The notes beneath the pieces are model-generated. The model was not told where the DNA came from and did no database searches. It saw nothing but the letters and a program-made list of their open reading frames with translations. A DNA stretch of 64,000 nt from Persicaria tinctoria (taxonomy: Eukaryota > Streptophyta > Magnoliopsida > Caryophyllales > Polygonaceae): assembly GCA_037127255.1 (NCBI GenBank), contig JBANSL010000002.1, positions 11,824,001 through 11,888,000 of the forward strand, read 5' to 3'. The translations under genes and the position numbers were made by a program. Each line of letters opens with the position of its first letter. The first letter of the stretch is position 1. Of this stretch, positions 13,740 to 61,955 are shown in pieces.

Positions 13740-14735
13740 AAATCCTTTTGTGGAATAGGTATTTTACTTTGTCCATCTTGCTATCATAGCTTCTCGATGA
13801 CGCTTTTAACTTAGAGCACCTTTTATAACATTGACTTTCCATGTCGTAATCCTTAATAAGCTCCGACCATATTATCTGACTTATGTTGATGTTCTTCCGA
13901 GTAACAATGTACTTCAGCTCTTATGATATGTGAAGATTTGGCACTGATCACCGTAAGGATTTTGTTGCTAGATATTCATACTGCTTGAGTTGCTTGGACA
14001 CAAACGTGAGCACCTTATCATCGTACATCATCACACACCTAGATCTTGCTTAGAAGCATCATTATACACTAGGTATTCTTCCCCATCTCTCGACAATGCT
14101 AGAATAGGTGCAGTGGTCAACCGCTTCTTCAGTTCATGAAAGCTTTGCTCGCACTTCTCATTTCACATAAACTTCTGAGACTTCCTCAAAAAAGAGGTGA
14201 GTGGCTGGGAAATATTCGAGAACCCCTCCACTAACCTTTTATAGTATCCGACTAGTCCCAAAAAACTTCCTTCACATTCTTTGGGTGAACCCAGTGTTTC
14301 ACTACTGAGATCTTCTGAGGGTCTACCATCACTCCCTCCTTAGATATGATATGGCCTCCTAGAAAGGCCACCTGCTTGATCTAGAAGTCACACATGGAAA
14401 ACTTAGCATAGATTTGATGTTGTCGCAGCACTGTTAATGTGGTCTGCAGATGCTCCTCAAGAGCTTCCTCACTCGGAGAGTAGATCAAAATATCATCGAT
14501 AAACAACACCACAAACTTATCCAGGTAGTCATGAAAACCCATGTTCATCAACTCCATAAACACAGTTGGGGCGATGGTCAAGCCAAAGGGCATCACCACT
14601 AACTCATAGTGTCCATATCTAGTCCTGAAAGCAGTCTTCAGGATGTCCTCCTCGCGAATCCGTAACCGATGATACCCAGAACGAAGATCGATTTTGGAGA
14701 ATACCCTTCGAACACTAATCGACTTATGCTACTAA
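13740..14735 (-). pseudogene. Ty3/gypsy polyprotein fragment (RT-RNase H)
   Basis: The reverse strand encodes a classic Ty3/gypsy reverse transcriptase core: [11 protein letters not shown], then [33 protein letters not shown] (catalytic xxDD present), and [13 protein letters not shown]. The RNase H part follows in broken frames (ELKKRLTTAPIL, VLTFVSKQLKQYE, WSELIKDYDM). Only 14381-14599 is an uninterrupted frame; stops and frameshifts break the rest. No LTRs were found around it. A dead retrotransposon remnant. Confidence 0.85.
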
Positions 14736-28105: not shown

Positions 28106-28864
28106 GAGGGAATTTGGTAAAAAAACCATTTTAGCATATTTGGTTAGCTAGATAGGTCCATTAATTGTTTTTTTTAGTATGCTTAGCCCATTAATTGTTT
28201 TTTTAGCTTGCTTAGCCCTCTTGACCGGTCAACGGTCAACGTTGACCGGTCAACCCATTTTGATGCCAACTTTTTTTTTTTTTTTTTTTTGATGCCAACT
28301 TTTTTTTTTTTTTTTTTTTAGTGATGCCATATTTTACCATTTTGATGCCAACATTTTGTGGTGACAATTTTATATAATTGATGGCATAAGAGCTTAAAAC
28401 GTGGAATCAAAATATTGTTACCTTATTGTCACTTTTCTAATGAAATGATTGGATGACTTTTTTTTTAATGCCACTTTTTTAAAACATTGATGACATTTTT
28501 TGTGATGTCATATTTTACCGTTTTGATGCCAAAATTTTATTACATTTTATTTTCACTCTGATGCCACTTTTCTAATTAAATTATTGGATGACACTTTTTT
28601 TAAACTTTGATGACATTTTTTGTTTACTCTAATGTCACGTTGACCATTGATGCCATTTTGAAAAATTTGTATCACATTAAAGAAAAAAATGTCATCAAAA
28701 ATACTACTTTGAAAAAATATCATCAAAAATCTGGCATCACGGTAAAAAAAATATTATCAAAAAAATGACATAAAAAAGTGGCATCAAAGTGAAAATAAAA
28801 TATAGTAAAATTTTGGCATCAAAACGGTAAAATATGGCATCACTAAAAAAAAAAAAGTTGGCAT

Positions 28865-29172: not shown

Positions 29173-32100
29173 TTTTGTTAATGTTTTTTTGAAACGGAAA
29201 AAATTTGACCATAGGGCTTAGCCCTATCAGCCAAGAGCATCCTTTCGGATGAGACTACGCAAAAGAGAATCATCAGGAGTCATTGGACCAAGTGAAGCAG
29301 AACCAAGTCGTGACAAGCGATCTGCCACTAGATTTGCTTCCCGGTAGACATGACGAATCTCGACCGAACAAAAGAAGCCCAGCGAGACTAGACTGTCTGA
29401 GACAATCATATCCGAGTCTCCAGTAGGCTTCCCCAAACCTTTTAAACACTTAATAATTGTTAGGTTATCTCCTTCTACAATCAATTTCGTAATTCCCAAT
29501 TTTTTTGCAGCGAGTATGTCATTCCATATCCCATGGCTTTCGCATCCACATACAGAATCGATTGGTGATGGTCCCCAGCCACAGTAGATAGGGGAACCCT
29601 TGAAGTCACGAATGATAAACCCAAAAGTGCCCTTATTACTAGAGGAGAGAGAGAGCCATCGAAGTTAAGTTTATGTGTATCCTGAGGAGGTGGTTCCCAT
29701 TTGGTTCTTTTTCTTTTTGAAATCAATCTGGGTTTTGAGTTGCTTGGTGTAGCTGTTATATTTTCTCTTGTATTTTCCTTTGCTTGTGAGGTTGTCCAGA
29801 TAAATTTTTGATCTTTTTTGAAAGCTAATATCTTTCTTATATCTGGGGTTATACTGTCGAAGTGCGTTTTGTTTCTAGAGAACCAGATGCCCCACCAGAC
29901 AAATGCTACGTCTTCAAATTTTACTTTTCCAATTGTGTTCTTGATATTCCAAATAGTTTCGTTGATCGGGTCTCCTTTATCAAAACAACCATGCATTTTC
30001 ATAAAGGATCATGGGTCATTTGCCATCAGAGTGCCCCTAGTAATGGGGCAGTCCCATAATAAGTGATATAAATCCTCATAGCATGAGTCGCAGTGAGGAC
30101 AATTTGTCGGGATCCCTAGCCTTCGAGATGCTAATCTGACCGTTGTTGGTACTGCATTTTTTAGGATCTTCCACATGAATGATTTTATTTTGGGTGGGGT
30201 ATTTAGGTCCCAAACCCAGCTTATATCCGATTTTGTGTGGTTTTTGTATTTATGTATCATATCAATTGCAGAGGTTGTTGTATACCAACCATTCTTACTC
30301 CATTTCCAATATAATCTGTCAACATGGATGTTCTCGGGTAATGGTATTGTGGTGATTTTCTCTATTAAGTCACTCGGTAATAAGCCTTGCAATTTCCCAA
30401 ATAATTTGTTCCGATCCCATCTTTTATTTTCTTTTATGAAGTATTGTATGTTTATTGACTCATCAATTTGTTGAGTATCTGGGATAAATGTTTTCAGGGG
30501 TGCTTGTCCCATCCAGAGGTCTCTCCAGAAATTTATCGCTGAACCATCCCCAATAGACCATTGGAGACCATTTTTTAATAGAGGTATTAATTTTATAAGT
30601 TGTGCCCATTGCCACGAGGATCCCCCACGCTTTTGATAATTCAGGATATTGCTTGTCTTGAGGTATTTTTCTTTTATTAGTTTAACCCACGGGCTATTAG
30701 GTTCCGCTAGTATTTTCCAGAGCAGTTTCATCTGCAATGCCTTATTCATATCCTCTGAGCAACGGAGACCAAGCCCACCATTTTCCTTTGTTTTACATAT
30801 TTCAAACCAACTGATGAGTGGTTTATGGTTAGGCCCTTTGTTCCAGAGGAATTGTCTATTGATTCTGTCCAGCTCTGAGTGGACAGATTTGGGTAACATA
30901 AAGCATTGCATTAAATGCAAAGGTTTTGCTGAAAGCGTAGACTTGATTAGAGTACACCTTCCAGCTTGTGAGAGACAGTTCGCCTTCCATTTATGCAGTT
31001 GAGTTTTGTTATTCATTATAAGGTCTTTGAAATCATCTTTTGTTACTCTTCCTTCAATGATCGGACATCCTAAGTAGCACCCTAAATTAGGGGTGTGTGC
31101 TATTTCTAATTCATTATGGATTAGATTTTTCTGTGTTGTCAAGACGTTTTTTGAAGTTTGGAATTGGGATTTATGTCGATTTACTCGTTGTCCTGATCGA
31201 CAAAGCAGTATACACCCTTAATGTTTTGTTGATTTGGTCACAACCAGTTTTTGTAGCTGACGCAAAGATAAGAATATCATCAGCGAAAGCTAGAAAAGGA
31301 ATCTTAGTTCCGTCTCTTGTTAGTCTTATTCCTAGATGGCTATGAGGTTTTTCAGATTCATTGTAAAGACCTCTAGCTAGGATTTCAGAAACAATTAGGA
31401 ATAGATAAGGTGATAAAGGGTCGCCCTGACGTAGACCCCTATCGGGGAAGAAAACATCAGTGGGTTCATTATTTACCAATACTGAGTATGTGACCGTGGT
31501 TATACATTCCTTGATCCAATCCGTGAACCTTTTGGAGAAACCTATTTTGAGCATAGTGGAAAGAAGAAAGTCCCACTCCACCATGTCAAAGGCCTTTTTC
31601 ATATCTAGCTTAACTGCCATCCAGCCGGTTTTTCCTTTTTTCTTAGAGAAGGAGTGAAAAATTTCATTTGCAATTAAAATGTTATCCTGTATAGATCTAC
31701 CAGAAGTAAAAGCACTCTGTAGGGGGTTGGTTATTTTAGGAATGATTTTTTTTAGTCTTGATGCTAATACTTTGGATATTACCTTATAAGTTGTTGAACA
31801 AAGGCTTATTGGTCTATAGTGTGATGTTGTTGTAGGATTGTCTGTTTTTGGTATTAAAGCGATAAACGTGTGGTTAGTTTGTTTCAGAATCCGTCCACTT
31901 AGGAAAAAGCTTTTTACAGCCTTGATTACAGAAGGTTCAACAATATGTCAATATTTTTTAAAGAATCCCGCAGGGAACCCATCAGGCCCTGGCGATTTGT
32001 CGTTTGCTAAACCAAATACCGCATTTTTAATTTCCGCGTTTGTGACTTGTCTTGTTAGCCAGTTATTATCTTCATTCGAAATTTCGTTTTCTATATAGGT

Positions 32101-32609
32101 TAATAAATTGCTAGGTATTTGTTGCCTCCTTTGAAGTGAATATCTTAGGCTGAAGTCATGTTTGATTAGTTTTCTTATTTCATCTTCGCTATTGATTGTT
32201 ATGCAAGCTGTAGTTTGGATCTGTTTTATTATATTTCTATTACGTCTTCCAGTTGCAATTTTGTGAAAATATTTTGTGTTTGCGTCTATGGATTTGACAT
32301 GTATTCTTTTGGCTCGTTGTCCCCAATATTTTTGTTGATAGGTTAAAAGTGAAGCATGCTTTACTGTGAGTCTTTTGATTTTTTTGTCTATATCATAGTT
32401 ATAAGCGTTACAGAGCGTGTTTTGCAGCTCCAAGAGTTGTGATTCAACTTGTTTTATTTGGCGGAAAACGTTTCCAAATGTTACCTTGCTCCAAAGCTTA
32501 CTTTTTCTTTTTACTTCTTGCAGTTTCTTTGTTAATTTAAACATTTGGGAACCCGGAGAGTCAAGTCTCCCAGCCGATCGTACAATGTTTTCACAGTCTG
32601 GTCTTTGTT
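29173..32609 (-). mobile_element. 5'-truncated LINE (L1-type) with target-site duplication
   Basis: The 17-bp duplication AATATGCTTTCTTAGTT flanks it (29156-29172 and 32610-32626), with an A-rich 3' end at the left. Reading the minus strand: a connector region (32544-31950), the RT core (31620-31171, LRQGDPLSPYLF, FADDILIFA), the thumb/zinc-binding region (31142-30009, with C-H-C-type PTNCPHCDSCYEDLYHLLWDCP), and RNase H (about 30002-29227, VEGDN, HVYREANLVADRLSRLG). The endonuclease domain is absent, lost by 5' truncation. The frame is broken by a stop near 31948 (TGA in KKY-stop-HIV), a stop near 30008, and frameshifts near 31170 and 29490. Dead but fairly recent. Confidence 0.93.
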
Positions 32610-45705: not shown

Positions 45706-47071
45706 TGGGTTGTGGGGGAAATTATGGGTCTAATAATGAAAACTGAAAAGTTGTCATTTCATTGTGGAATTATTAGTTGGATTATTTTAAAAGGAGGGGT
45801 TTAAATTTTAAATTGATTAATTTTGGCCTTTTTTTTATAATTTTATATAGGTTTCTTTGAGGTGAAATAAGGTGGTCCTAATAAAATTTGTGGTTTTGAT
45901 TATTTATGGAAAATATATATACAAATGGTGTGATTAATAGAGGTTAATTTGAAAGTAGGTGTAGTTGTTCCTTCTAGAAAAAAAGATTAATTAGGTGTGG
46001 TTTCAATTTCATATTAGGTCGAAGGATTAATGTCAAGGGTTAATTTCAACTACTAGGATTACTTCACAATTTAGCAAGTTAATTTACAACTCTTTGTGTT
46101 ATTAAAAAAAATGTTGATGGATAATTTTATATTTTAAATAAAATAATACTCCTTTTGTTAATTAAAATTTATCGTTTACTATTCATGTACACGTTTTTAT
46201 AATGATAAAAAACTATATAAAATATTAACATTTATTTACATTTGTTTTTATAAATTCATACTTGTAATAAGTATGAAATTATTAAAAAAATTATTATAAA
46301 ATTTAATATTTTATATAGCTTTTAACACATAAAAAAACGTGTGTGAATAGTAAAACGTCAAATTTTAATTAGCGGAGAGAGTAATACTTATAATAATTTT
46401 TATTATTTAAATAATGAAATTAATTTTAAATTTCAACTAGTTTATAAACTCATTAGATTTACCCAATATTTAAAATATTTAAATGAAAAAGGGGAAGGAA
46501 TAATAATCCTTGTTTTTTCGTGGTATCTACGGCTTCAACACTACAGTAAAGGGGGGAAGGTGGGACCCGCACCATACATTTTCCAGCTCAACACGTATGC
46601 TTTGTTTCCACGTGATCATATCGCGTCTTAAATCCGGAAGCCCATCAAACGTTGCAGGGAGGCGGGACCCACGTTCCACAATCCAATCCTGCGGCTGGTA
46701 AAGCATGTGTACCAGAAGCTGTATGGGACGGGTTGTAGGGAATCATGTCCCAACTTTCCCGATTAAATAAACACCACCGACAATCTCAAGCCACTTTTTA
46801 CAAGGGGTTCGATGGCATCATATTTTGTGTCATTTATTGTATTTTAATTAAAATAAATAAATAACGATGGGTATAACGTCGTATTTAACTTCTTAATCAT
46901 GGTCAATTGTCTTATTACTAAGCTAATTATCCCCTTAATCAATTGTTTTAAGTCCAAACCATTTTGACTTACCTCCTAGCTTGTAGCTTTCATCCCAACT
47001 TATGTTTCTAATTTCCCTATATATAGTTGATCATTTGTTGATTCAAATAAGCACTAAGAGTTTAATATTAT
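45706..47071. other. Upstream region of the NHL gene
   Basis: No gene. It contains the Stowaway-like MITE at 46149-46381. A GC-balanced stretch at 46510-46760 (cacgtgatc, gggacccac, ggacgggttg) may be promoter-like DNA but has no identifiable partner gene. Confidence 0.4.
46149..46381. mobile_element. Stowaway-like MITE (diverged)
   Basis: The left end ctccttttgttaattaaaattt and right end aaattttaattagcggagagag are inverted, flanked by TA (46147-46148 and 46382-46383). The inner arms tttactattcatgtacacgttttt and its inverse are also complementary. Confidence 0.8.
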
Positions 47072-49841: not shown

Positions 49842-50975
49842 TAGGGGTGGGCGCGGGACGGGACGGGACGGGATTGGGCCGGGCCGGGACTCGTCCCGCT
49901 AAATTTTTTCGGGACGGGATTGACATTTTTTTTTCGGGACGGGATGGTGTCTGGACGGGACGGGATCGGGACGGGACGGACCTTGTCCCGCATATAAAAA
50001 TAATAAAATATTATATAAATTTGCAAAGTGAAAAATGCTTTCATAATTCATTATTTAGTATAATATGTTGAATACGGTATTATTCTCAACTATATTATTC
50101 AATAATAATATTATTAATATTAATATTATAATACTATTATTAATTCATACAATGATTGTATAATTAATTATAATGTTCAACATATTTGGCTACATTATCT
50201 TACTAGATCAGGACGGAAAGGAATTGAGACGAGATTTACCAATATTGTCTAATTAATTATCGATTGATAGTTAGGAAGAATACCGTATTTAATTAGCTAT
50301 TTGCCTCTTGTAACTCTAAATGGGCGGGATGTGTGTGTCGATCTGTCGGGATCCTCTCCATTGACTCAGTCTGGAATTTCTGACTTTATGCCTGGTCGTG
50401 CTGTTGTTGATGCTGCTCGACGTAAGTGTGTCAAGTATCGAGATTTGTGTACGACGGCTGGTTATGGTTTCCTACCCTTCTCATTCTCTTCATTGGGGGA
50501 GTTGGATACAGATGCGGTTGCATTGCTGAAGCGGATTCAGAAATTCTCGGTATCTCAGGATGCTGGGGCTCGTGTTGCACGTTATATTTTTACTAGACTT
50601 GGCTTTGTTATCGCTAAAGGAGTGGGTGCCCAGATAGTATCTCGGTTGCCCACTAATTTCTTGTAATATGTTTTTATTATTATAATAATAATAAATAATA
50701 ATAATAATAATAAATAATAATAATAATAATAATCCCACGTTATAATTATACTTTACAAGAAAAAAATATAATATGATATAATAATAATAATAATAATAAT
50801 TTTATTATAAATTAATATTATTATTAAATTATATTATAATATTATATATTATTATTATTATTATTATAAAATGAAAATTATTATTATGGTTATAAATAAT
50901 ATTTGCTCAAAATAATAATACTAATAATATATTAGTATTATTTTATAATATTATAATATTATTATTATTATAAAA

Positions 50976-51021
<46 letters not shown>

Positions 51022-51214
51022 GCGGGACGGGACGGGATTTGCGGGATCCCACCGGGATCGTCCCGCGTTTTGTCCCGCATAATTTTTGCGGGACGGGATT
51101 CGCTATTTTGTCCTAAATCCCACCGGGATCGGGACGGGATCGGGACGGGACCGGGACGGGATCGGGACGGGACCGGGACGGGATCGGGATTTGCGGGATT
51201 TGTGCCCACCCCTA
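49842..51214. mobile_element. Non-autonomous hAT element with a captured coding segment
   Basis: TAGGGGTGGGCGCGGGACGG at the left and GTGCCCACCCCTA at the right are flanked by the perfect 8-bp TSD TTGTTAGG (49834-49841 and 51215-51222). The subterminal parts are arrays of cgggacggga / gggatcggga words. The interior has AT microsatellites (50680-51020) and a 121-codon open frame at 50301-50666. Same family as the 70-bp element at 10693. Confidence 0.93.
50301..50666 (+). CDS. Partial coding segment captured in hAT (retroelement-associated domain)
   Basis: A 121-codon open frame reading DVCVDLSGSSPLTQSG, YGFLPFSFSSLGELDTDAVALLKRIQKF and ARYIFTRLGFVIAKGVGAQIVSRLP. This pattern (VDvtG.SP..., gFlPFaF...G.l...a...L.Ri, f.RlgF.iqkGvgAQlvaRLP) is one I associate with the C-terminal region of plant hypothetical proteins that often also carry reverse transcriptase-like sequence. 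Its codon composition is far more GC-rich than the microsatellite flanks. The first ATG is probably not native; the segment looks like an internal exon captured by the transposon. Function unknown. Confidence 0.55.
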   Translation: MPLVTLNGRDVCVDLSGSSPLTQSGISDFMPGRAVVDAARRKCVKYRDLCTTAGYGFLPFSFSSLGELDTDAVALLKRIQKFSVSQDAGARVARYIFTRLGFVIAKGVGAQIVSRLPTNFL

Positions 51215-52094: not shown

Positions 52095-52790
52095 TAGACC
52101 TGAGTAAATATGGGCCAATCCGCCCGGTAAAATATGCGGGCTTGGATATAGTAGTTGGCCCAAGCGGGCCGACGGGCCCGACTCGGTAGGTCCAGAGGGC
52201 CGGGCTTGGATAGATGGTGAAGCCCAAGCGGGCCGACGGGCTCGGGCCGAATTTATAATAATATTATATATAATTATAATTATATAAATTATATAGAGTA
52301 TTATAAAAATATATACATAATTTCTAAAATTTATAACTATATTGCCGGTGTCATACTAGTGCTAAGTGCTAACTATTCCCAATCATAAACGCTCTCATCT
52401 GCAAAATCAAATCCAATTGAGAAATAAAAACCCTAAATGTTCTCTCTCGCATAGCCTGAGTGCCGCTTGAAAGTATTGGTACACTATAACGTTGATTTGC
52501 ATTTGTTAGTAAGCTAATATTGTCCAGATTTGCCTCGCATTTGAAAATATTTATACAATGTTGTAATTTGTTACTTTTTTTTAGTTCGATTTCGGATAGA
52601 AAACAAATTTGAGATGCTAGGCCCGCTTGGCCCGGTGGACGGCCCGACCTGGCAAAGCGGACGGGCTTGGGCAAGGCACTAGGCCCGAATACCGGACCTG
52701 GCCCAAGCCCGGCCCATTGTATTGGGCTGAAATTTTGGTCGAGGCCCGGCCCAAGCCCGCCCGGTCCGATCCATGCTCAAGCCTATTCTA
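52095..52790. mobile_element. Non-autonomous hAT element (GGGCC-rich ends)
   Basis: The left end TAGACCTGAGTAAATATGGG and right end ATGCTCAAGCCTATTCTA are imperfect TIRs. The 8-mer TATATAAT occurs on both sides (52087-52094 and 52791-52798). The subterminal regions are full of gggcc/ggccc words (gcccaagcgggccgacggg), while the middle is AT-rich. No transposase. Confidence 0.75.
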
Positions 52791-53004
52791 TATATAATAG
52801 ATAATATTTTTTTAGATTTCATAATTTCTAATTTGGTACAGTGGATGGTTATTAAATATATATATATATATATGGCCTTTTTTTTATATATAATATAGGG
52901 TATCTGGGTATATAATAAAGAGTTGAAGAAAAATCTCAAGAGTCTCTTCGGAAACATCGATACAGAAAAATCTCAAGAGTTAATTTTATAGAAAAAATTG
53001 TCTA

Positions 53005-53147
53005 TGTGATAATAGATAGAATAGAGATGAGAAGAAGGGAATGAACTGATGTATTATTGGGGGTCTTCAGGACCCTTTATATAAGAGTTTACATAGGGAA
53101 CTAGGGTTTCTAGTGTTTATCCATCACAATATAATAATATTATAACA
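53005..53147 (-). repeat. LTR (left; 3' LTR of the minus-oriented element)
   Basis: 143 bp, tgtgataata ... ttataaca. It contains ggtcttcaggacc, a hairpin of the same type as the interior array, next to a TATA-like tttatata. Confidence 0.92.
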
Positions 53148-53523
53148 CTCTCCCTTGGATAAACATTCCTAAATATTACAAAATTACATATCTTGCCTAG
53201 AAAACCCAATGGGACAAAACTAGGACCAAGAGAACAAATACATATGACATTTGATACACTTTGGTGATCTGCCTCGTTAAAAACCTTGTCAGGAAAACCC
53301 AGTGGGACAAAACTTGATCGAAGGGAAAAAGAGTGCAGTGCGTGTATACTCCCCCTGAATTCAACATCCTTCTCGAAGTCTTCTCATTCTTCTTGATGGC
53401 GATGTCTTCATGAGCTTATGGTTGAATATCAACATTTTCTTTGACCTGGAATTTCTTCATGATTGACTTGATACGCTTGACTTCCATGTATTGGTGTTGA
53501 GTTGCTTTGAATGCACAAGCATA

Positions 53524-56500
53524 AGGTACTACAGGACCTAGTGTGCTTTTCATTGTTGATCAGGGGGATCTGTTGTATTAAATGGTGCATAAGTTGCCTC
53601 GTTAAAAACCTTAAATTGGAAAACTCAAATGGGATAAAAACCAAGATCAAGGAAAAGAGTACAACATTGTATGGTACTTCAGGACCTAATGCAATGTCAC
53701 CATTTTCACAATTATAGGTACTTCTGGCACTCTTATAAGGATCTTTAATCAATTGCATGTGACGAGACTTTGATATTAATGCTTCAGACATTTTCAATCG
53801 ATCCTTTCATTTATATGCGTATGCAAGTAACACGTCCGTCATTTACTTACATTTAGATCCAGAATTATATTCACTTCCGGTGAATACATTCGCCATATAA
53901 CCTTTTATAGATATTTGTGCAATCAACTTGGCTTTGTATTTTATTTTGTATGAACACCCACTTAAAACCAAATGATGTTACACTTTCCGGTGTTGGAACT
54001 ACAGGTTCAATGCCATCATGCTTAAAGAACTCATTCTTGCATGAATTTCCTTTTTCTAGCTCTTTACTATCATTTCGATGTTGACATCCATTTGTTTATT
54101 CGATGATCATCATATTCTCATAGGCTCTTTCCACTTCTGGGGAATCGTATACCAAGAGCCTAGTGATCTCCAACACTTCTGGTGTACTTGAGAACCACTT
54201 GATATTCATGGAGTTGGAGTTACTTCTGGAACTTCCAAATGAGCTAGTATCTGTGACTTTATCACTTTCTTGGCTTATAGTAAATGCTTTCAATTGCATA
54301 TTTGCTAAACCTTATAATCATTTCATTTATTGAACTTCTGGTTCACTTGTATTTATCCGCGAATATGAAATGATAGAGAAGTTGCTTCCGTGCAATCTCT
54401 TTCTTAATTGTCTCATTTCCTCTCCCCCTAAATACCGAGCATTTGATCACCATTATAAAGCTCTAGGTATTTGATAGCAATAGGGACTCAAACCCCATGT
54501 ATCATCCAACTTCTTTGTGGTCTCGTTGTAGTTCATTTGGAGGAGGTACATCTCGGAACATATGTTGTTTATTCAAAACCTTTGAATGACATGATCTCTT
54601 CTAGAGATAATTAGGGGGATGTTATTGTGTCAAATTCGAAATGCAAACATGCATGGGCCCATTTGACTAACGACTCTTCTGGGTCGTCGTGAGCTACCTT
54701 ATGCTCAACAATGTTTTTGATAGCATTCTCTACCTTGTGTTTCATATGACCAAAGTATTGAGACATCTGTAATCTTGGAATTATACTGGTCTATATGATA
54801 GTGTTCCGTAGATGTCTCATTGAATCCATTCAAGAGACATTAGAGACTTTGCATTTACTTTGAATTTAGATGGTCTTGTCGTTGATTTGCCAAGATGACA
54901 TACCATATATGTTCGGTCACCCTTATAGAGGATCTTTGGGTCCTAGGATCTTCTGGTCCCTTTTAGTGGGTGTGTATGTGAATGCCAATGATCCCGCCCA
55001 TCATCGTTTCACATGAATGACCGAATGCCACAAAGAAAAACATTTTATCATTAACTAACTTTTGGTTAGTGATAAGTTTCAATGGGATAAATGAGTGTCA
55101 AATAAATCATATATATACATTCTCACTCTGTAAGACGTGCTTCTGGCTAGTCATATGAGATATTGGTGTTCAATACCATGTCAATTCATACATATGTGTC
55201 ATTTGTTACTTCAGGTAACAAGATCAATGCTCTTCTGGAGCTATATAGTATTCATCTTGGTTTTATATTCAAGATTGTTTGAGAAAACTTCAGGTTTTCA
55301 AAATTGTTTGACACTTATAAAACCATAATATTCAACCATTAAACCTTGTATTTGGTGATCTATTTAATTTAGATGTCATTGAATGGGTATTGTCAGAAAT
55401 TTCGTTGGTGTCATACTTCAGGTATGAGTCATTTATAATGTTATTCAAGACATTTAGAATTAACCGTATAACAGACCTAGCTATAAGCCACAATAATAAC
55501 TTTGGTCAAGCGCTTAACCATAACCTCTTTGACACCCTCTACCGGAGGGGCATGCTTCAGGCAATGCTTAAAGGATAGTCAGGAAGTGGCCTTTTTACCT
55601 GGGTCGTATCATGTGGTTACTTTTATTGGTTGTATCAACCAAACAAAAATAGTTCTGAATATGATAAAACCCACCTTCCATGTACTTCTTCAGGAGTACA
55701 AATGATAAAATTAGGAACATATACTCTTCCGGAGTTTGTGAAATCCTTTACTCTTTTAGAGTTCATAAAATATTCTTTACTCTTCAGGAGTTAATAAAAA
55801 ATCCACCAGTAGAGTCTTCAGACTCTTAGGTTAGTGTTGAAAAATTTCACAATCTACGGGATTGTGGTAAACCTTTCTCCCAAATGTTCATTTGCCAAAC
55901 AAAACTTCGCATTAGACACTCATGGTAAGTAGTTTCTTCGGGAAACACTTTGAGCTTTGAATTACAATAAGTAAAATCATAATAATTTTATTCAATATAA
56001 AGCAATGAATAATAATAATAAAAAATTGTATTTGTCCACTTCAGGTGGAGCCATGAGAAAAAAACTTGTCAATTTATCATTTTCTTCAAGAAATGATTTA
56101 ATTCATAAAATGATTCAATTTTCAACTTCGAGTGACAATTAGTCTCTATTATGTATATTTCGATCATATACTCCAAAAGATGATAAGTTGCAATTCAAAA
56201 AATATAGTAAGTTGTCATGTAAACATTGTCCATATTCTTCAAGAAATGGTATGATCGATTATTACTCACTTCAGGGAGAAGACAACTTGTATACATTCAC
56301 TTCATACACTTCTGGGTGTGATTTTAAATAATCTTTATGAGGATATACAATATATCTCTTATCATTCATTTACTTCAGGAAATGAATATTGTCACGTCAG
56401 GGACAAATTTGTATTGATGAGAGAGAGAGACATTTTATGAATTTCCTTTTCATATATCTCTTCAGGAGATTATTATCGTTCCTGCAGGAACGATTTATGA

Positions 56501-57830
56501 GCATAATGTGTTCATCCTCTTCAGGGGATGATTTTATTTATTTCGAGAGATAATGATAAATAAATAAATAGTTGATATACATAGTAAAACTATAAAATCA
56601 TAAAATCATAAATAAAATAAAATTGGCATATTGTCAACTTCTGGTGACAAGAAAATGAACATCTGCAAATACATCTTCGTCTACTTCTGGAGACTGGTGG
56701 ATAAATCATAATTTTCTTGTTTAGCTATAAAAATCATCGGTACAAGGATGATTATGAATTTTAAAATTTTATCTACTACGGGAGATAAATTTTATTATGA
56801 TATATAGCCGAAAATATTTTATGTTCTTCAGGAGATAAATAAGAATTTCATCTTCTTCAAGAGATGTGATATATAAATTGTGTTTACTTTATCTACTTCA
56901 TGAGATAAACTACCACGTTTGGGATGATATGCAAATTTAACAATTTATATCTACTTCGGGACATAATGTTTGTCTACTTTTGGAGACAAGAAAATAAAAT
57001 ACAAATTGAAATGAATAATAAAACTGAAAATAAAAAAAATCATCACTACGGGGATGATTTTCAATCGTTCACATCTACTTCAGGAGATGTTCCGTTCATC
57101 TACTTCAGGAGATGATGATTAAACAAATATAATTTAAATAAATTAAATTAAATAACATATAAAATAAATAAACATAAATAATAGATATAATTTCTTCACT
57201 ACAGGGATGAAATTTATCGGCTTGATCATCTCTGCGGGGATGAGATTTATCGGCTTGATCATCTCTGCAGGGATGAGATTTATCGGCTTGATCATCTCTG
57301 CGGGGATGAGATTTATCGTTTCATCGCTTCGAGGATGAGATCAATTTATCATTCATCTACTTCAGGAGATGCGCTCGTTCATCTACTTCGGGAAATGATT
57401 TCGTTCATCCACTTTTGGAGATGATATATAAATTTAACAATTTTATCTACTTCAGGAGATAATTCATCTCCTTCGGGAGATGAAAAATAATTAAAATAAA
57501 CATAAAAATAAGATAAATAAATAAATAAATAATTCATCACTATAGGGATGAAATTCGATCGTTTATCACTAAAATAACATCCGCTTCAGGGGATACGACC
57601 GACTGATCCAATCGCTTCCGGGATTGAGTTTAAATTACTTTATCCGCTTCAGGGGATACAACTTTGATTGATTCAATCACTTCAGGGATTGAGATTACTT
57701 TATCCGCTTCCGGGGATACTACAAAAATCACTTCAGGGATTGAGATTACTTTATCCGCTTTCGGGGATACTACAAAATTGATTGATTAACCACTTCGAGG
57801 GTTACACATAATCTTCGGGGATGTATGAAT
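53524..57830. repeat. Array of short stem-loops with constant loop core CTTCWGG
   Basis: At least 30 short inverted repeats share a loop of the form (a)cttcagg, cttctgg, cttccgg or close variants, while the stems differ and remain complementary. Examples: 53524 aggtactacaggacct; 53869 attcacttccggtgaat; 54129 ttccacttctggggaa; 54331 tgaacttctggttca; 55205 gttacttcaggtaac; 55283 gaaaacttcaggttttc; 55411 tcatacttcaggtatga; 55681 tgtacttcttcaggagtaca; 56631 ttgtcaacttctggtgacaa; 57071 acatctacttcaggagatgt; 57641 tatccgcttcaggggata; 57674 caatcacttcagggattg. Stems are 4-9 bp; at 56364-56387 the stem is attcattt/aaatgaat. Spacing is irregular, mostly 20-150 bp, densest after 56 kb. No protein frame explains the pattern. 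Confidence 0.93.
57208..57322. repeat. 33-bp tandem repeat, three copies, within the stem-loop array
   Basis: The unit gatcatctctgcrggg/atgagatttatcggctt starts at 57224, 57257 and 57290 (period 33). Each unit holds one stem-loop (catctctgc-ggggatg). It shows that some hairpins multiplied by local tandem duplication. Confidence 0.88.
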
Positions 57831-58242
57831 ACTTTACAGGGGCAAAATATGAATCCCTGAAAGTTTTAGGCCTTTTTCTGTAATTGTGTAAAAATTACGG
57901 GCCAAGCTGCGATATTTAAGAAAATGCGGGTTGGTTCCGTAATTAATTAAAAACCTGCAAAATGCAAACCTATCTTCCTCGCTCTTAATTTACAGAAGGA
58001 GACGGCGGCAAGGTCGGTTGTTCCTGGCTCTTCCTTGCGTCGCGGATCCAACCCGACACAAGGCTACCGGATTTCCGACTCCAAGAGGTGGCTGCCGTTC
58101 AAGTTCCGACTAGGTCGAAGTTCGACCTCGGGGTTTGCGTGGAGGTCGGCGGCGTCGCCCAAGGGTAAAGATGAAGTATTCCCAATTGCAACATCTGCAT
58201 TCAATTCTTTTTCAAATTAAGAAGTATAGATGTTATAGATAA

Positions 58243-58686
58243 TTAAACATGGATAATTAAAAGGAAAGAAAATCGAAAACTTCCCTTCGCATCATCGGTG
58301 GATGAAAAAAACATTAGCAATATCGAAGTCATTGAATCGTCGAGCAGGAGCGGGCGATTAGCGAGGTGCATATAGAGCTGCTTCTTACACCGGAACTCAG
58401 CCATCAGCGCCTCACCGTCCTCATATCGGGCAACGATGACTTCGCAATCTGACGGCATACACCGCTCCCAGACAACGTCGATCGGATTCTGATGCCGACC
58501 AGAAAACCTTCGAGACTGCCGCGACTCGGCAAGCGTCCCTAGGCGTCTTGAATGCGACGATGGCGGCGATGCATCCCTACGACACCATGTCGAAGATACC
58601 ACCTTCATTATAGGCCATGATCTCGATAGATGAATTTCAACAGAGATCGGTTTCGATACGGGATGAAGGTCGGCACATAGAAACAA
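58243..58686 (-). CDS. Unrecognised 147-residue frame near the primer site of the LTR element
   Basis: An open frame of 147 codons on the element's sense strand, beginning about 50 bp after the primer-binding site, where gag would start. The sequence (WERCMPSDCEVIVARYEDGEALMAEFRCKKQLYMH) matches no gag zinc knuckle or domain I know, and composition is GC-richer than the array. It could be a degraded gag head or a captured host fragment. A forward-strand frame at 58035-58220 overlaps the same GC-rich block and is probably a shadow. Confidence 0.35.
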   Translation of the reverse strand: MFLCADLHPVSKPISVEIHLSRSWPIMKVVSSTWCRRDASPPSSHSRRLGTLAESRQSRRFSGRHQNPIDVVWERCMPSDCEVIVARYEDGEALMAEFRCKKQLYMHLANRPLLLDDSMTSILLMFFSSTDDAKGSFRFSFLLIIHV

Positions 58687-58734
58687 AAAGGATTATGGTT
58701 GATTTTATTTGGGTAGAGTTTCGTGCTGATAACA

Positions 58735-58877
58735 TGTGATAATAGATAGAATAGAGAGGAAAAGAAGGGAATGAACTGATGTATTATTGAGGATCTTCAG
58801 AACCCTTTATATAAGAGTTTACATAGGGAACTAGGGTTTCTAGTATTTATCCATCACAATATAATAATATTATAACA
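58735..58877 (-). repeat. LTR (right; 5' LTR of the minus-oriented element)
   Basis: 143 bp with the same ends as 53005-53147. Differences are single-base changes around 58757-58760, 58790-58801 and 58843. The hairpin word is gatcttcagaacc here, with one stem change on each side. Confidence 0.92.
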
Positions 58878-58954
58878 GTCTACCAAATTTAGAGTTATTT
58901 TTATAGACAAAAATATTACACTTCTATTGTTTACACAAAAGTCCTCACAATCTT

Positions 58955-59183
58955 TTTTTTATGACGAGGAACCCACCTTTGATGGCAAACCCCGAGCACG
59001 TGATCTAGCCAGCAAAAGTCACGTACCAGGTAAACCGGCTTGCGTCGACCGGCTCGACCCAGTGGTAGAGAGCAAGGTAAATCTTGGGTTTTCATTCAAA
59101 GAAAGAGGCGGAGGCAGAGATCGAATCCGGGACCTCCTTGCTCCTCCCCTTACTCCTTACCACTAGACCACCCCGACTGGGGC
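58955..59183 (-). mobile_element. tRNA-derived SINE, minus strand
   Basis: The 17-bp duplication aaagtcctcacaatctt (58938-58954 and 59184-59200) flanks it. The minus strand begins near ccccagtcggggtggtctagtgg (box A), continues to ggtcccggattcgatc (box B), and ends in poly(A) (T-run at the left). Confidence 0.88.
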
Positions 59184-59372
59184 AAAGTCCTCACAATCTT
59201 GTTAACAATACATGTGGTAGCCCATTAGCTCGTCTAATTGAAAAGAAAATACAATCAACCAAACTATCTTAAAAAACAAAACACATGAATACACGATCAA
59301 TACGTGACTACCCATTAAAATTTGTCCAACTTAAATGCTCTAAACCTAACTAACAAATACTAGCACGTAATA

Positions 59373-60119
59373 GTGACCATATCACACCCATTAAAGATCT
59401 CCTACAATCTAAACCATCTACACCAAACTTTGAGGACTTCTGCGTCATTTGGCAAGCGATATGGGAAATTAGGAACAATGTAATTTTTAAAAACATTGAA
59501 TCAATCTCACAAATTGTTGTTAGATCATTTGTGTAAGTAAGAGATTGACTGAGTGCCAATCCTAATAAACTAAGAAACAAGACAGAAGAAGGATTGTGAT
59601 CAGATGGAAAAAACCGCCTAGGGCCACCTACAAAATTAATGTAGATAGCTCAGCCAAACCTACTGGTTGCTGCCAAGTAGGTGGGATTCTCAGGGACTGT
59701 GATGGAAGTGTGATGGATATCTTTCCACAACAGGTAGATAGTGGTTCAGCTATCCAAACCGAAGTAGCTGCATTTTGTGCAGGTAAAAAAATGGCTTTGA
59801 GAAAAGGTTTACGCTGAGTAATAATTGAAGGTGACTGTCTAGAAGTAATCAAGGCTATAAACGGCGATACAAGACCTAGATGGGAAATATGGTGGCAGAT
59901 TGAGTTATTCAAAAAGATGCAATCGGATTTTGAGCTCATAGAATTCAAACATTGCTTTAGTGGAGCTAATGGTGCAGCAGATTTCATAGTCAGATCTAAT
60001 GTAATTTGTAATATGGATAATCTCCCTTATAATAGAGAATTCTGTAACATCATTCGAAAGGATGATCAGGGTGGCGTTCTGTCTTAAGAACCACCCCTTT
60101 TTACCTACTTAAATAAAAA
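59373..60119 (+). mobile_element. 5'-truncated LINE fragment with TSD (RNase H region)
   Basis: The 14-bp duplication ACTAGCACGTAATA (59359-59372 and 60120-60133) flanks a 747-bp insertion ending aaataaaaa. Forward reading: WQAIWEIRNNVIFKN (about 59450), then IRWKKPPRATYKINVDSSAKP, GGILRDCDGSVMD, QTEVAAFCAGKKMALRKGLR-stop-VIIEGDCLEVIKAI, FKHCFSGANGAADFIV. This is the plant LINE tail with RNase H, broken by a TGA at 59817. Confidence 0.88.
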
Positions 60120-60627: not shown

Positions 60628-60813
60628 CAATCACAAGTTGGTGTAGTGGTTATGGGACTACATCTCATGCATCGAGATTCAAAGTTCGAAACACCGTGGA
60701 AACATGGAGACGCTTGTGAGTGGGAGGGTCAACCCCTTAAATAGGCCTACAGTAACCCGATCCAGATGTAGAGTGGGCAAAGCCCACTCTAACCGGAAAA
60801 GGATAAAAAAAAA
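60628..60813 (+). mobile_element. tRNA-derived SINE that seeded a tandem array
   Basis: Box A-like tggtgtagtggttatggg (60641-60658) and box B-like aagttcgaaacacc (60681-60694) are about 40 bp apart. The body ends ccggaaaaggat plus poly(A). The target duplication is gaatattgaaaaaatcgt at 60610-60627, with gaatattgaaaaatcgt right after the poly(A) at 60814-60830. Confidence 0.85.
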
Positions 60814-61955
60814 GAATATTGAAAAATCGTTTACTAACATTATCTCTTCGTCAAAAATCGAGTATACAACACTTGTTAGAGTCAACCCCTTAAATAGGCC
60901 TACAGTAACCCGATCCAGATGTAGAGTGGGCAAAGCCCACTTGAACCGGAAAAGGATAAAAAAAATAGAATATTGAAAAATCGTTTACTAACATTATCTC
61001 TTCGTCAAAAATCGAGTATACAACACTTGTTAGGGTCAACCCCTTAAATAGGCCTACAGCAACCCGATCCAGATGTAGAGTGGGCAAAGCCCACTTGAAC
61101 CGGAAAAGGATAAAAAAAAAAGAATATTGAAAAATCGTTTACTAACATTATCTCTTCGTCAAAAATCGAGTATACAACACTTGTTAGGGTCAACCCCTTA
61201 AATAGGCCTACAGTAACCCGATTCAGATGTAGAGTGGGCAAAGCCCACTTGAACCGGAAAAGGATAAAAAAAATAGAATATTGAAAAATCGTTTACTAAC
61301 ATTATCTCTTCGTCAAAAATCGAGTATACAACACTTGTTAGGGTCAACCCCTTAAATAGGCCTACAGTAACCCGATCCAGATGTAGAGTGGACAAAGCCC
61401 ACTTGAACCGGAAAAGGATAAAAAAAAAAGAATATTGAAAAATCGTTTACTAACATTATCTCTTCGTCAAAAATCGAGTATACAACACTTGTTAGGGTCA
61501 ACCCCTTAAATAGGCCTACAGTAACCCGATCCAGATGTAGAGTGGGCAAAGCCCACTTGAACCGGAAAAGGATAAAAAAAAAAAGAATATTGAAAAATCG
61601 TTTACTAACATTATCTCTTCGTCAAAAATCGAGTATACAACACTTGTTAGGGTCAACCCCTTAAATAGGCCTACAGTAACCCGATCCAGATGTAGAGTGG
61701 GCAAAGCCCACTTGAACCGGAAAAGGATAAAAAAAAAAGAATATTGAAAAATCGTTTACTAACATTATCTCTTCGTCAAAAACGGAGTATACAACACTTG
61801 TTAGGGTCAACCCCTTAAATAGGCCTACAATAACCCGATCCAGATGTAGAGTGGGCAAAGCCCACTTGAACCGGAAAAGGATAAAAAAAAAAAGAATATT
61901 GAAAAATCGTTTACTAACATTATCTCTTCGTAAAAAATCGAGTATCCAACACTTT
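60728..61955. repeat. ~154-bp tandem array, eight copies
   Basis: Unit starts (gtcaaccccttaaatagg) are at 60728, 60881, 61035, 61189, 61343, 61497, 61652 and 61806, giving spacings of 153-155 bp. Each unit is the 3' ~86 bp of the SINE plus ~68 bp of its 3' target flank (gaatattgaaaaatcgttta ... caacacttgttag). Copies differ by a few substitutions and the length of the A-run. The repeated reverse-strand frames across the array are by-products. Confidence 0.96.

Follow-up and report, generated by a model that had tools for sequence, protein, structure and literature searches.

A 64,000-nucleotide stretch of Persicaria tinctoria DNA (contig JBANSL010000002.1, positions 11,824,001 to 11,888,000; here the window) contains a long terminal repeat (LTR) retrotransposon whose internal region is filled with about 60 good hairpins that share a loop and differ in their stems. 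The loop is conserved, and the stem sequence is free provided that the two arms pair. A polypurine tract (AAGGGAGAG) beside the terminal repeat at 53 kb fixes the orientation of the element as minus, and its own loop therefore reads CCNGAAG (CTTCNGG on the plus strand). An earlier note on this DNA had described at least 30 inverted repeats with covarying stems around a fixed CTTCWGG loop. That description is borne out, and more strongly than the note put it: all nine of its stem examples are located, its count was low, and the variable loop position accepts any base rather than W alone.

The array is far denser than base composition would predict, and a palindrome scan clearly exceeds its shuffled control. 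The plus strand of positions 53,524-57,830 carries 42 exact CTTCNGG cores, compared with 0.65 ± 0.73 (maximum 3) in 60 dinucleotide shuffles, and 22 perfect core hairpins with a stem of at least 5 and a loop of 4-9, compared with 0.05 (maximum 1). With one-mismatch cores included, at least four of the five inner pairs are formed at 60 of 71 cores (34 of 42 exact and 26 of 29 one-mismatch), and the median spacing between cores is 42 nt. Outside 52,900-58,900, the two strands together have CTTCNGG at 10 places, and just 2-3 of 6 pairs form there. Counting all hairpins with a stem of at least 6, whatever their loop, gives 30 versus 9.4 in shuffles (maximum 16), and the excess falls mainly at loop lengths of 8 (14 versus 1.4) and 5 (7 versus 1.4); at loop length 3 there are 5 versus 2.2. 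Masking 70 core places leaves 19 hairpins versus 21.0 at a stem of at least 5, and 8 versus 7.1 at a stem of at least 6. A slight residue away from the core is possible at a stem of at least 7, where 5 hairpins remain versus 2.2, a number reached by 3 of 60 shuffles. Since no clear excess survives masking, we conclude that the palindromes are tied to the CTTCNGG loop.

Each hairpin's arms match each other rather than those of other hairpins. For all 42 exact cores, with none dropped and no arm filter applied, a hairpin's own arms form 4.74 of 6 Watson-Crick pairs, compared with 2.87 ± 0.14 when arms are permuted, and the best of 20,000 permutations reaches 3.48. The 29 cores below 57,000, which lie outside the visibly tandem block, behave in the same way (4.59 versus 2.74 ± 0.17, maximum 3.45). 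Some of the other analyses used 66 or 67 of the 71 cores, leaving out the exact core at 57,819 (2 of 5 pairs); in these analyses the one-mismatch cores had passed an arm filter, and in the 66-core set the exact cores had passed a mild one as well. In the 66-core set, 61 hairpins form at least 4 of 5 pairs, and they carry 38 different inner 5-mers.

The hairpins fall into two loop classes, and the stem covariation claimed by the earlier note is present in both. In the 8-nt-loop class (n = 45) 87.9% of stem cells are paired, compared with 55.1% after shuffling, and in the 5-nt-loop class (n = 22) 77.9% are paired, compared with 48.9%, percentages that are inflated by the arm filter, which 26 of the 29 one-mismatch hairpins passed. 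The covariation scores are 0.884 versus 0.255 and 0.729 versus 0.205, respectively. None of 500 shuffles reaches the paired fraction or the covariation score of either class, and the covariation signal is lost when the partner column is shifted by 1-3. Two simpler counts do not exceed the shuffles: pairs changed on both sides (298 and 480 of 500 shuffles reach the counts of the two classes) and, for the 5-nt class, how many pair types occur (379 of 500). Duplicated segments within the array provide a further comparison. Across the first five pairs of 21 aligned hairpin pairs, which are not independent and from which pairs of differing loop class were dropped, 9 cells have changed on both sides and are still paired, while 7 have changed on one side. 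Three of these seven are G·T and none is A·C, though few hairpins are involved. The hairpin at 57,477 differs from that at 56,983 by two adjacent compensated pairs.

The loop classes are also separated by position, dividing the array at about 56 kb. Only two 5-nt-class hairpins lie above 56,000, at 56,045 and 56,466, and the split between the classes gives a Mann-Whitney p of about 2e-7, a value that is overstated to the extent that neighboring hairpins are related by duplication. Below 55.2 kb the array is weaker; from 53.5 to 55.2 kb all five inner pairs are formed in only 2 of 10 exact cores.

The array sits in a whole 5,873-bp LTR insertion on the minus strand, with TG...CA ends, GTCTA flanking both outer edges and two 143-bp LTRs that are identical at 137 of 143 positions. 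Terminal repeats, TG/CA ends and target-site duplication together make it an LTR retrotransposon, in agreement with the earlier note; the insertion is complete and now decaying, with very short LTRs. Five of the six LTR differences run in one direction only, with G at 53 kb facing A at 58 kb on the plus strand. The 3' LTR carries an intact hairpin of the 5-nt-loop class (GGGTCCTGAAGACCC), and its counterpart in the 5' LTR has two changes. No exact core is present on either strand of the leader (57,831-58,734) or in the 3' region from 53,148 to 53,523, and no tRNA was found in the window for comparison with the expected primer-binding-site stretch. Part of the leader (57951-58692) appears by eye to be richer in G+C than the array and has open frames on both strands. 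It is possibly captured host sequence, and it has no Pfam match above cut-off.

Features of the LTR element, in window coordinates
Feature	Position	Strand	Remarks
Target-site duplication GTCTA, copy 1	53000..53004	.	Read directly at the LTR edge
3' LTR, 143 bp	53005..53147	- (minus-strand sense)	6/143 differences from the other LTR
3' LTR hairpin, 5-nt-loop class, intact	53061-53075	-	GGGTCCTGAAGACCC in sense
Polypurine tract adjoining 3' LTR	53148..53156	-	AAGGGAGAG; from the sequence
3' region, degenerate repeat	53184..53330	-	53184-53237 and 53277-53330, 76% alike, without exact core
Whole hairpin array, core CCNGAAG	53670..57819	-	71 places in 53,524-57,830: 42 exact, 29 one-mismatch
3' sub-array, mainly 5-nt loops CNGAA, C-G closing pair	53715..56051	-	20/22 hairpins of the class lie below 56,000
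Candidate broken Copia-type reverse transcriptase remnant	53846..54095	-	Peptides in two frames; likeness confirmed by no search
5' sub-array, mainly 8-nt loops	56077..57805	-	38/45 hairpins of the 8-nt class lie above 56,000
33-nt tandem units, one hairpin each	57204..57318	-	Loops CCCGCAG, CCTGCAG
51-nt tandem units, two stem types	57579..57770	-	TATCC, CAATC
Leader, 5' LTR to array	57831..58734	-	149-codon open frame 58243-58692, no family match
Expected primer-binding-site stretch after 5' LTR	58719..58734	-	TGTTATCAGCACGAAA in sense
5' LTR, 143 bp	58735..58877	-	Comparison with the other LTR
Target-site duplication GTCTA, copy 2	58878..58882	.	Read directly at the LTR edge

No frame or domain explains the array, as had been suspected. 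The longest stop-to-stop frame in the element has 149 codons, and neither the 10 frames nor the 10 of 15 frame pieces searched in Pfam reached a curated cut-off. The top match, Eplus_motif (E = 0.0014; 18.8 bits against a cut-off of 24), covers six residues of 57105-57320 on the minus strand and was taken as spurious; the remaining matches have E values of 0.025 or worse. The 10 of 15 frame pieces gave no match to RVT_2 or integrase even at E ≤ 10. With no frame above a family cut-off, the element is probably non-autonomous, and among the frames searched in Pfam it has no gag or pol open frame, the feature by which large retrotransposon derivatives (LARDs) and other non-autonomous elements are recognized. 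Among the peptides encoded at 53.7-54.1 kb, PTPESVTSFGFKWVF, GPEVPY and, from another frame, YKAKLIAQ suggest a broken Copia reverse transcriptase, a likeness that no search confirmed: the pieces had no match above chance in Pfam, and one of the two had none in the protein collection or the Protein Data Bank (PDB).

Searches for relatives were likewise negative. Two minus-strand pieces found no relatives in the protein collection, and one found no match in PDB. Rfam returned nothing at E ≤ 1 for either strand of 52500-59500, including no hammerhead ribozyme. A plasmid DNA collection queried with 57000-57830 gave no match, and genome contigs queried with the 3'-region pattern gave 0. Two motifs did find loci in viral contigs (7 and 1; L001-L008), but these were rejected as relatives since their core density is at most 0.9 per kb; among the 40 best alignments listed between these loci and the element, none is longer than 33 bases. 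In open-licence papers, searched by titles and abstract openings, no such array is described among the matches listed.

Loops that are kept while stems drift and yet stay paired form the pattern expected of a structure that presents its loop to a partner, and we infer that selection on structure plus loop maintains the stem-loops. We propose, tentatively and at less than even confidence, that the hairpins are repeated binding sites for a trans-acting protein, most likely the Gag of an autonomous partner, and that they serve in packaging. The transcript would display CCNGAAG loops, in each of which NGAA adjoins a C-G closing pair, as repeated low-affinity sites. A protein supplied in trans, for which Gag or nucleocapsid of an autonomous partner is the best candidate, would bind these loops, and many weak sites could jointly ensure packaging into the partner's particles. 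Assembly of RNA viruses is described as being driven by many dispersed stem-loops with a common recognition motif (PMC6281560). The Gag protein of Ty1 is reported to bind many RNAs with low specificity and, in competition experiments, to favor its own RNA in a way that depends on structure (PMC8396678). A preference of this kind might be reinforced by numerous weak sites. A further step, which we regard as conceivable but doubtful, is that most of the internal region has been turned into dozens of packaging hairpins with identical loops. The element would then be a cheater RNA optimized for uptake into the particles of another element, an LTR retrotransposon with dispersed packaging signals in the style of viruses.

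Several observations weigh against this proposal. A single copy of the element was seen, and no Gag partner. The loop variants CCCGTAG, CTTGAAG, CTCGAAG and CCAAAAG recur three times each among 66 cores, so that loop recognition cannot be strict, and the weaker hairpins at 53.5-55.2 kb may partly be chance or coding relics. The 42 exact cores have 168 inner pairs, of which 20 are not Watson-Crick, compared with about 7 expected from LTR divergence. This excess rejects the idea that all imperfect inner pairs reflect decay since insertion, and it implies that the source hairpins were not perfect either. Departures of the G·T and A·C types are few and equally frequent (7 each among 396 cells in 66 cores), giving no sign that the pairing rules of RNA from one strand have shaped the stems. 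We rejected the idea that the sense strand folds more strongly than the antisense, as the opposite was found: antisense is more stable in 150-nt windows (mean z of -1.38 versus -0.58 for sense) and in isolated hairpins (-5.0 versus -4.0 kcal/mol). Isolated sense hairpins are nonetheless more stable than 400 control 26-mers (mean of -4.0 versus -1.3 kcal/mol), and the pairing probability beside the core exceeds 0.5 at 26 of 42 cores in sense and 25 of 42 in antisense. Folded RNA as the functional form, one suggestion of the earlier note, is thus a candidate reading that gains no support from the comparison of strands. Because the departures are equal and the sense strand has no advantage, this copy does not say which strand matters, and copying of one arm from the other at the DNA level is possible.

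Such copying is the basis of the main rival to a packaging array. During reverse transcription or replication, template switching (quasi-palindrome correction) could write the hairpins and match their arms, and tandem duplication could spread them, with no function needed. We consider this possible, if rather unlikely. Watson-Crick stems without strand asymmetry fit arm-from-arm copying, the array contains tandem units, and yeast mutations are reported to lengthen the identity between the arms of imperfect inverted repeats (PMC3820800); template switching is also offered as one possible mechanism for palindromes in mitochondrial coding sequences of Nematomorpha (PMC6649704). A general process, however, should perfect any inverted repeat, and core-free hairpins are not in clear excess, which weakens a general form of the targeted palindrome-forming process raised by the earlier note; a form directed by the motif is possible. 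Template switching does not explain why loops stay alike while stems diverge to the extent seen in the inner 5-mers. Selection may also have acted on RNA or single-stranded DNA structure for another reason, such as host-factor binding, control over how stable a non-coding transcript is, or a part in priming and strand transfer in reverse transcription. To such roles, which we rate as rather unlikely as well, the evidence from arm swapping, masking and covariation applies equally, and antisense folding that is equal or better would suit first-strand complementary DNA or an antisense transcript. The lack of an Rfam match up to E = 1 across 52500-59500 counts against them.

Two simpler origins may account for parts of the array. 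CCNGAAG can be read as Pro-Glu with a free third base, so that the array might derive from a repeat or linker in a Copia polyprotein, now decayed, with codons that are palindromic by chance. The free N does fall on the third codon position, GPEVPY, PTPE and SPEV near 53.7-54.2 kb appear to resemble Copia polyprotein segments, and the Pro-Glu frame has slightly fewer stops (0.058) than the other frames (0.081 and 0.086, the latter inflated by TGA in the core). Coding, however, does not make arms pair. Core spacings are divisible by three no more often than chance (22 of 65) and are thus not in one frame, the Pro-Glu frame around the cores has many stops (85 of 1474 codons), and no family exceeds its cut-off. 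We rejected a coding repeat on spacing and stop codons and regard a coding relic as an improbable explanation of the array, while a coding origin is possible for some cores at 53.5-54.4 kb. Plain tandem duplication of one hairpin, without constraint, is less probable still. The true tandem units at 57.2-57.8 kb and the segmental duplications speak for it, and part of the 57.0-57.8 kb block did arise by tandem duplication (33-nt and 51-nt units), a qualification to the earlier argument against duplication. Duplication alone predicts that arms should match across hairpins as well as within them, yet the arm-swap result shows otherwise, and the compensated changes in duplicated segments are paired ones.

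The array bears on how partners mobilize non-autonomous LTR elements. If the packaging proposal is true, about 60 loop-conserved hairpins in one element would supply a cis signal for trans-packaging that is direct and can be tested. Template switching at the loop motif, should it be responsible, would be an unusual case of palindrome formation directed by a motif. We would learn something in either case.

Other repeats occur elsewhere in the window. A 154-bp unit is present in eight head-to-tail copies at 60725-61954, the copies being about 97% alike, and an AT-rich simple repeat that is self-complementary extends over about 350 bp at 50664-51023. Long inverted self-matches at 28496-28849 and 46141-46389 (74-76% over about 250-366 bp) are possibly foldback or miniature elements. 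Frames at 29227-32607 and 14381-14728 resemble, by eye only, reverse transcriptases of the long interspersed nuclear element (LINE) and Gypsy types.

The array shares features with several known systems. In the mitochondrial genes of Nematomorpha (PMC6649704) and the quasi-palindromes of yeast (PMC3820800), the arms of inverted repeats evolve together, as they do here, but the palindromes in our element sit at one loop motif, and the passages cited mention no common loop for those systems. Retrozymes are likewise described as non-autonomous plant retroelements with a structured, functional RNA (PMC4918200), whereas in this element Rfam matched neither a hammerhead nor any other family up to E = 1. 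LARDs such as Sukkula of grasses are LTR elements with an internal domain, no protein product and an RNA secondary structure said to be well conserved (PMC7215508). By comparison, the element described here, known from one copy, has 143-bp LTRs, a length of 5,873 bp and an array of very small hairpins that share one loop motif. The packaging signals described for MS2, picornaviruses and hepatitis B virus resemble the array in having many short, variable stem-loops around a common motif in one RNA (PMC6281560). Our array, known so far from its sequence alone, lies in DNA without recognized coding and shows the same defining combination of one loop motif and many variable stems.

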